A DNA stretch of 64,000 nucleotides from Natronocalculus amylovorans. GTDB lineage: Archaea > Halobacteriota > Halobacteria > Halobacteriales > Haloferacaceae. Made by a program: the position numbers and the translations under genes. Below, one piece after another: positions 50,175-51,806 of this stretch; positions within the stretch are counted from its first letter, which is position 1, and every line of letters starts with the position of its first letter. Under the pieces are notes generated by a model. The model searched no databases and had not been told where the DNA came from. It saw nothing but the letters and a program-made list of their open reading frames with translations. Location: contig NZ_JAKRVX010000001.1 in NCBI RefSeq assembly GCF_023638035.1, forward strand, positions 310,001-374,000, given 5' to 3'.

Positions 50175-51128
50175 TTATAATAATCGGCCTACGTCAGAAA
50201 GCACCGCGGTGGCTGTCTCGGGACCACCGGCACCACGACCACTAATGTTGAGCCGTCCAGCATGCGTGGTGTCTAATTGAACGATATTTCGTGTCCCGCT
50301 AACTGCAAGCGCTGAGTTCTCAGGAATCAGCCGTGGTCCAACACGAATGCCATCGCGTGACGCCTCACCAATCAATCGAACTGTTCGGCCGTCGTCTGCT
50401 GCAAGATCGAGTGCAGCACCGGGGACATTTGTAATACCGTCCACAGTTGCATCGTCGAGCGCGAATTCCTGTTCACCTTGACTGAGAACATTTGCTAAGA
50501 TGACACATTTGAGCGCTGCATCAGTTCCCTCAACATCAAACGTTGGGTCAGCTTCCGCTACGCCCATATCTTGGGCTTCCGCAAGAACGTGCTCATAGTC
50601 GAGCCCTTCAGCGGCCATCCGTGTGAGGATGAAGTTTGCGGTCCCATTGAGCACTCCACGCGCTGCAGTGATGTGTCCGGGCCCAAAGTCTTCGATCGTC
50701 GACAGCGCAGGAATCGCACCGCCAACGGTGGCCTCAAATCGGATATCACCATCGCTTGCAGTGACTAGTTCCATGAGATCTCCGTACCGTTCTGCAACTG
50801 GCCCTTTATTCGCGAGGACAACGTGTCGGTCATGTTCTAACCCTGCCTTCACATGGGCAAATCCAGGCTCCGCATCACCAAGGGTCGTTGGTGTTGCTTC
50901 AACAAGCACGTCGTATGATGCATCAAGTGCAGCCTCTGGATTCTCATCACCAACGGTTCCGTCAGCATCTTTCCGGGTAAAGATGGCCTCTGGGTCAAGG
51001 CCTTTAGCGTCGATCGCTGCACTCTGTGAATCTGCTACTGCAGTTACTGTGTAGTCATACTCTTCGGCAAGTTCGACAACCGATCGGCCAACAGCCCCAG
51101 CACCCAATACTGCAAGTCGTCCGCTCAT
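50175..51128 (-). CDS. hom: Homoserine dehydrogenase
   Basis: This 317-residue enzyme has the NADPH-binding loop (LAVLGAGAVGRSVVELAEEY), the catalytic segments LANKGPVAERYG and VGGAIPALSTIEDFGPG, and GVLNGTANFILTRM. It reduces aspartate semialdehyde to homoserine, the branch point to threonine and methionine. It lacks the C-terminal ACT domain found in many bacterial versions; instead a separate ACT-domain protein overlaps its start by four bases and likely supplies regulation. Confidence 0.93.
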   Translation of the reverse strand: MSGRLAVLGAGAVGRSVVELAEEYDYTVTAVADSQSAAIDAKGLDPEAIFTRKDADGTVGDENPEAALDASYDVLVEATPTTLGDAEPGFAHVKAGLEHDRHVVLANKGPVAERYGDLMELVTASDGDIRFEATVGGAIPALSTIEDFGPGHITAARGVLNGTANFILTRMAAEGLDYEHVLAEAQDMGVAEADPTFDVEGTDAALKCVILANVLSQGEQEFALDDATVDGITNVPGAALDLAADDGRTVRLIGEASRDGIRVGPRLIPENSALAVSGTRNIVQLDTTHAGRLNISGRGAGGPETATAVLSDVGRLL

Positions 51129-51658
51129 TGTACCACCTCCGTAAGCGGTTCAATGACGTGTAAGTCTTTTTCGGCTGCAATTTTACGGAGTGCCCCAAGT
51201 GTATCTTCAGTTGTCCCTGCACGGGTTGCAAGCCGAAGGAGTGCACTTGACTGTTCATCTGTTCCCTCGCGTCCAGAGAGAGACAAGTCGTTCAGTGATG
51301 CATTCGCACAGCCCTCAATCCGTTTGAGTGTATCAGAGAGGTCAGTGTCAACAAGGTGGCCAACGAGCAACACGGTGAGCTCCTCATCGTATCGTTCGGT
51401 ACCTGCCTGCATGACATTCACACCTGCATCTCGAAGCGCTTCAACAATTGTTTCGAACCGATGTGGTGTACACGAAAAGTCAACCTCCACAGGGATATGC
51501 CCACGTGGTGTGAGATTACCACGTTCGTGGTAGATCGACATGAGATTGCCTCCGTTGTCCGAGATCGGCTGTAGCGCCCGGAGTAGCTCACCCGGCTCGT
51601 CAACAAGTTCGAGTCGAACCGTGTGCGTCTGTGCTTCCGTTGAATCTGGAGAACTCAT
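51125..51658 (-). CDS. ACT-domain regulatory partner of homoserine dehydrogenase
   Basis: This 177-residue protein has an N-terminal ACT domain (VRLELVDEPGELLRALQPIS, DNGGNLMSIYHERG) and a second region (LLVGHLVDTDLSDTLKRIEG) that probably adds another ligand fold. ACT domains bind amino acids and control enzymes, so this protein should sense threonine or a related end product and act on Hom (inference). Its stop overlaps the hom ATG, giving translational coupling. Its own ATG in turn overlaps the stop of a 39-residue leader ORF. Confidence 0.8.
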   Translation of the reverse strand: MSSPDSTEAQTHTVRLELVDEPGELLRALQPISDNGGNLMSIYHERGNLTPRGHIPVEVDFSCTPHRFETIVEALRDAGVNVMQAGTERYDEELTVLLVGHLVDTDLSDTLKRIEGCANASLNDLSLSGREGTDEQSSALLRLATRAGTTEDTLGALRKIAAEKDLHVIEPLTEVVQ

Positions 51659-51774
51659 TCGTGCACCCCCACCAGGACCGCATCCGCTGTTGCTGTTGTT
51701 GTGCCCGACGAAAAGCAGTCACTAGATACCTCCGAAGCGATACGTCGGGTGGCGGATGGCGATTCCTTCCACAT
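51655..51774 (-). CDS. 39-residue Thr-rich leader ORF before ACT-hom
   Basis: A short frame from the ATG complementary to 51772-51774 ends with a TGA (51655-51657) that overlaps the start of the ACT gene as ATGA. Residues 25-31 read TTTATAD, with Thr codons ACA-ACA-ACA, then GCA, ACA. It starts MWKESPSATRRIASE and ends VLVGVHE. A TATA box (51799-51806) lies 25-32 bases before the ATG, so the message probably begins at this ATG with no untranslated leader. The threonine run upstream of a homoserine dehydrogenase operon recalls bacterial thrL. It may be a leader peptide sensing Thr-tRNA, or simply a small protein. Not recognised. Confidence 0.55.
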   Translation of the reverse strand: MWKESPSATRRIASEVSSDCFSSGTTTATADAVLVGVHE

Positions 51775-51798
51775 ACTACGTCAGTGTTCTGCCGTGAG

Positions 51799-51806
51799 CT
51801 ATAAGG
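51799..51806 (-). promoter_or_regulatory. TATA box for the leader-ACT-hom transcript
   Basis: On the complementary strand this reads CCTTATAG, 25-32 bases before the leader ATG at 51774. No better TATA box lies between the leader start and the ACT gene. Confidence 0.55.

Follow-up and report, generated by a model that had tools for sequence, protein, structure and literature searches.

A conserved threonine-rich leader ORF ahead of the ACT-hom operon in haloarchaea, a candidate leader-peptide attenuator

Background

A textbook mechanism of bacteria controls amino-acid genes through ribosomes that stall while translating a leader peptide. Among the closest described systems to the haloarchaeal locus reported here is thrL of Escherichia coli (thrABC), with which it shares a short ORF that separates the promoter from an operon for homoserine dehydrogenase, a stretch of Thr codons (joined by Ile codons in some lineages) and a hairpin in the leader. 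The E. coli thrL peptide also mixes Thr and Ile, and Ile is made from Thr. In the bacterial leaders of pheST (pheM), ilv (ilvL) and related operons, as in the haloarchaeal pheS, ilvB and trpS2 leaders described below, codons match the amino acid of the pathway or aminoacyl-tRNA synthetase under control, and in the translational attenuation of erm/cat the leader peptide stands, as here, directly before the Shine-Dalgarno sequence of the regulated gene. Among Archaea, gene pairs of Haloferax volcanii that overlap by ATGA, with a Shine-Dalgarno sequence before the downstream gene as in our locus, are translationally coupled by termination-reinitiation (PMC6728339). Table 2 of Babski 2016 (PMC4983044) lists uORFs in 5'-UTRs of the same species, including one of 26 aa before pheS and one of 23 aa before a tryptophan--tRNA ligase; hom and ilvB are not in that table, and the section with the table mentions neither cognate-codon content nor attenuation. 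A full-text literature search, with most subscription papers outside its reach, returned no report of leader-peptide attenuation in Archaea, and several of its leader-peptide matches were bacterial. An earlier note on the present DNA had called such attenuation little described.

The haloarchaeal leader differs from thrL in being archaeal, in its predicted start at the first base of the transcript, in a stop codon that overlaps the first structural gene, in a hairpin placed before and not after the run, and in having no terminator T tract. Compared with pheM and ilvL, the haloarchaeal leaders are predicted to be leaderless and are read by archaeal transcription machinery; the likeness is one of cognate codons rather than of any established sequence relationship. 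The locus also differs from the ATGA pairs of Haloferax volcanii (PMC6728339) in its upstream member, a short leader that carries a conserved cognate run and a hairpin and is not a gene of ordinary size.

Organization of the locus

We analysed a window of 64,000 nucleotides from Natronocalculus amylovorans (contig NZ_JAKRVX010000001.1, positions 310,001 to 374,000). The leader ORF, the ACT gene and hom are flanked by the genes of EF-2 (upstream) and EF-1 alpha (downstream), and their features are listed in Table 1. The leader ORF starts with ATG at 51774-51772, ends with TGA and encodes MWKESPSATRRIASEVSSDCFSSGTTTATADAVLVGVHE; the spacing of the TATA box predicts that the transcript starts at this ATG. 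The earlier note had described a minus-strand TATA box before the ATG of a 39-codon ORF, the codons ACA-ACA-ACA-GCA-ACA within it, and the overlaps of its TGA with the ACT gene and of the ACT gene with hom. All of these elements were recovered at the coordinates of Table 1, with a TATA spacing of 30 nt, and the two genes were identified by their Pfam domains.

Table 1. Position and strand of the features of the leader-ACT-hom locus in the window
Feature	Position	Strand	Basis or remark
TATA box CCTTATAG	51799..51806	minus	First T of TTATA 30 nt upstream of leader ATG
Leader ORF, 39 codons, predicted leaderless	51655..51774	minus	ORF reading; conserved in relatives
Regulatory codon run ACA ACA ACA GCA ACA	51688..51702	minus	Leader codons 25-29
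Hairpin 5' arm CCCGACG, ahead of the Thr run	51743..51749	minus	Folding; positional profile in relatives
Hairpin 3' arm CGTCGGG, ends 1 nt ahead of first ACA codon	51704..51710	minus	Folding; covariation in relatives
Shine-Dalgarno-like GGGGGTG for the ACT gene, within leader ORF end	51664..51670	minus	
ACT-domain protein gene	51125..51658	minus	Pfam PF01842; ATG overlaps leader TGA (ATGA)
hom, homoserine dehydrogenase	50175..51128	minus	Pfam PF00742; overlaps ACT gene end

The whole window holds a single further short ORF with a full-score TATA box spaced as for a leaderless start. It is an AT-rich ORF of 37 codons on the minus strand (16207-16094), and no gene stands after it.

Conservation of the leader

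The ACT gene is present in every genome searched within the order. Upstream regions were read in the correct orientation at 123 loci, some of which are the same locus retrieved twice, and the leader set comprises 62 distinct leaders from the window's own family, Haloferacaceae (including records of Haloferax, Halogeometricum, Halonotius and Halalkalirubrum), and one other family. The anatomy of the locus is conserved: the TATA-to-ATG spacing is 29-30 nt in 54 of the 62 leaders, the overlap with the ACT start is -4 (ATGA) in 53, and most leaders have 33-47 codons (range 17-67). Loss of the frame or of the Thr codons beside conserved flanking genes had been named in the earlier note as evidence against a regulatory leader; instead, the frame, the leaderless geometry, the ATGA overlap and the Thr run have all been retained.

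Elsewhere in the order the ORF mostly has 9-16 codons and few Thr codons, being still TATA-led and overlapping the ACT gene by ATGA, and in some genomes it is absent. The overlapping mini-ORF is thus broadly distributed in the order, and most leaders of the Thr-rich form are those of Haloferacaceae. The form of 9-16 codons may be the ancestral state, to which sensing was added later. Examples of mini-ORFs overlapping the ACT start outside Haloferacaceae (L086-L098 and others) are MSERTEVSR and MARRGRSEVAR.

Regarding the peptide, the sequence is highly variable, with the exception of residues involved in RNA pairing, the Thr/Ile run and an EV-x-R ending tied to the Shine-Dalgarno sequence. The leader peptides are basic, with 15.7% R+K and 7.8% D+E; haloarchaeal proteins are typically acidic. 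No match to the leader peptide was found in Pfam or NCBIfam.

The Thr/Ile codon run

Thr represents 15.9% of the residues in the leader frame, compared with 6.2% and 8.8% in the other two frames. Across the 62 leaders, 372 Thr codons were observed against 231±10 in codon-position shuffles, adjacent Thr pairs numbered 72 against 21±5, and a Thr pair is held by 51 leaders against 17±3, with a significance that is overstated because the shuffles take relatives as independent. Exchanges between Thr and Ile in separate lineages are free of this issue. The run, which mostly starts at codons 22-27, consists of Thr in most lineages and is mixed in several (among them L015, L028, L029, L069, L071, L072, L078 and L109), the mixed forms being ITIIT, TIIT, ITII, ITIT, IIT and TTI. 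Among the AT-rich codons at leader codons 20-30, 112 of 183 encode Thr and 27 Ile, whereas Glu, Ile and Asn lead in the ACT genes. The bias extends to the choice of codon, since ACA accounts for 89.9% of the Thr codons in the run and for 6.6% in ACT genes. Selection acts on the Thr/Ile codons of the leader.

Hairpin and RNA structure

Leaders that differ widely in sequence share a hairpin that ends within a few bases of the first codon of the run. In a scan along the leaders, the energy of the best hairpin was -16.2 kcal/mol at the start of the run and lay between -6.7 and -10.5 in the 12 nt to each side, and the hairpin at the run start was stronger than in ACT-gene controls (p=1.2e-7). Its covariation (0.169 vs 0.114) was reached in 0 of 500 shuffles, and in an ungapped group of 17 leaders 94.7% of the hairpin pairs were standard, with an excess of two-sided changes; the hairpin, like the codon run, is under selection. 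Its placement would let a ribosome on the regulatory codons alter it, as in attenuation of the thrL type. Single folds of part of the set suggested a second pairing, between a 5' GGCACG, which encodes a conserved T-G-T, and a GCGTGCC just before the Shine-Dalgarno sequence. RNA pairing accounts at least in part for the N-terminal motifs TGT and RIGTE. The leader had no match in Rfam, including its riboswitch and T-box families.

Proposed mechanism

We propose, with a probability of roughly three in four, that the ORF is a leader peptide on a leaderless transcript and that the place where its ribosome stands informs the ACT-hom operon of charged tRNA-Thr and, in some lineages, of charged tRNA-Ile as well. 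Ribosomes would load at the 5' AUG and translate the leader. When Thr is scarce, a ribosome would halt on the ACA run and necessarily keep the two arms of the hairpin apart, since the 3' arm ends at the first run codon; with ample Thr, it would pass, the hairpin would re-form behind it, and the stop codon overlapping the ACT start would be reached. The operon would respond through one of three candidate outputs: initiation at the ACT gene, termination-reinitiation, or transcription.

Two forms of the output step were tried and rejected as stated. The Shine-Dalgarno sequence would not be unmasked by a stalled ribosome, its mean unpaired probability being 0.40 in the free and 0.34 in the stalled state. 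The cost of opening the ACT ribosome-binding site falls by 2.64 kcal/mol, no better than the 2.76 in shuffled leaders, so that the sequestering and stall-dependent release known from erm/cat are unsupported. An intrinsic terminator of the thrL type is likewise unsupported, as T tracts of at least 5 occur in 0 of the 62 leaders. Because ATGA pairs are coupled by termination-reinitiation in Haloferax volcanii (PMC6728339), a stall before the stop codon might, taken alone, reduce translation of the ACT gene, although starvation should call for the reverse. Factor-dependent termination is a possible output, as is direct Shine-Dalgarno initiation with the ribosome parked upstream.

The resemblance to thrL drawn in the earlier note thus stands in part. 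It is strengthened by the Thr/Ile run, the anchored hairpin and the parallel ilvB, pheS and trpS2 leaders, and it fails in the missing T tract and in the ribosome-binding site that stalling does not unmask. We do not assign the leader to the thrL-type attenuators, because the terminator feature is missing and the regulatory response is a prediction; the sensing half matches.

Alternative explanations

The most serious competitor is a leaderless mini-cistron that senses no amino acid and only feeds ribosomes by termination-reinitiation into the ACT gene with its Shine-Dalgarno sequence. Such a role would suit the low-Thr ORFs of 9-16 codons in other haloarchaeal families and the coupling of ATGA pairs in Haloferax volcanii (PMC6728339), but it leaves unexplained the Thr/Ile run, its ACA bias, the hairpin anchored to it and the cognate runs before ilvB, pheS and trpS2, and we consider it unlikely. 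Slightly less probable still is a structured RNA element that binds a protein or small molecule, with ACAACA as an unpaired motif and the Thr codons incidental. The conserved and covarying hairpin, the near fixation of ACA in the run and the share of RNA pairing in the TGT and RIGTE motifs agree with it; yet ATTACAATTATTACA, ATCACAATTATT and similar sequences can stand in place of the motif, and these keep Thr/Ile in frame and not the RNA sequence. The missing Rfam match and the cognate codons of the other leaders also count against it.

The remaining explanations concern the ORF itself. The earlier note had allowed for an ordinary small protein, here one with its own function, and a promoter of its own together with conserved start and stop codons would be expected of such a gene. 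We disfavour it as very improbable, given a widely variable sequence, lengths from 17 to 67 codons, a basic composition and the lack of a Pfam or NCBIfam match. Short ORFs are common, but an ORF arisen by chance would hardly recur as 62 distinct leaders with near-fixed geometry and in-frame Thr enrichment; conservation refutes this explanation, and we give it practically no weight.

Parallel leaders before other amino-acid genes

In the same genomes, ilvB is preceded by TATA-led leader ORFs ending in Ile/Val runs (MEQSIVLGVHESGAIAVGSIIIVGA in the genome of the window), with the run directly on a conserved GTAGGGG...CCCCTAC hairpin and the stop codon in its loop. TATA-led leaders with Phe runs precede pheS (...TRFGFPFSLL in the window's genome, ...GFGFFFAA in others), and their Phe codons are able to pair with a downstream GAAACC. 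The second trpS (trpS2) has a TATA-led leader containing Trp (APWRWW) in some relatives. Cognate residues reach 22% Ile+Val (ilvB), 14.1% Phe (pheS) and 9.2% Trp (trpS2), percentages biased upward because some of these leaders were chosen partly by their cognate motif. Relative to shuffles, the excess is modest for Ile+Val in ilvB (82 vs 66±5) and strong for Phe in pheS (43 vs 8) and Trp in trpS2 (11 vs 2). As negative controls, thrC, trpCBA, thrS and hisG have no cognate leaders in these genomes.

Taken with the hom leader, these ORFs suggest a haloarchaeal family of attenuators that work by leader peptides on leaderless transcripts and are independent of those in bacteria. Its members would respond to charged tRNAs for Thr and Ile at hom, for Ile and Val at ilvB, for Phe at pheS and for Trp at trpS2. 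We regard this wider case of ribosome-mediated attenuation in Archaea as likely, with somewhat less confidence than the role of the hom leader. If it is true, the translating ribosome informs operons of tRNA charging in archaea too, on leaderless mRNAs, and haloarchaea and bacteria reached the same codon logic, even to the mixture of Thr and Ile. The family would be testable in Haloferax volcanii, where pheS and a trpS have listed but unexplained uORFs (PMC4983044), and it would offer a route to studying the links between archaeal transcription, translation and termination.

Further details were noted among the individual leaders. Small TATA-led ORFs without a Thr run precede thrS in L285, L287 and L292 (MVGVRFTGAFARF, MAGVHFTGRAFARN and MAGGRFTARA). 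In the window's genome, the ilvB leader (1147-1224 of L132, from contig C14) ends in SIIIVGA, similar to others among L126-L142, and the pheS leader lies at 676-756 of L225, with Phe-run leaders throughout L211-L228. The trpS2 leaders L231, L232, L234, L235 and L236 share a conserved GGAGCGGACAGT segment that is able to pair with a downstream GCGCTC...CCG.
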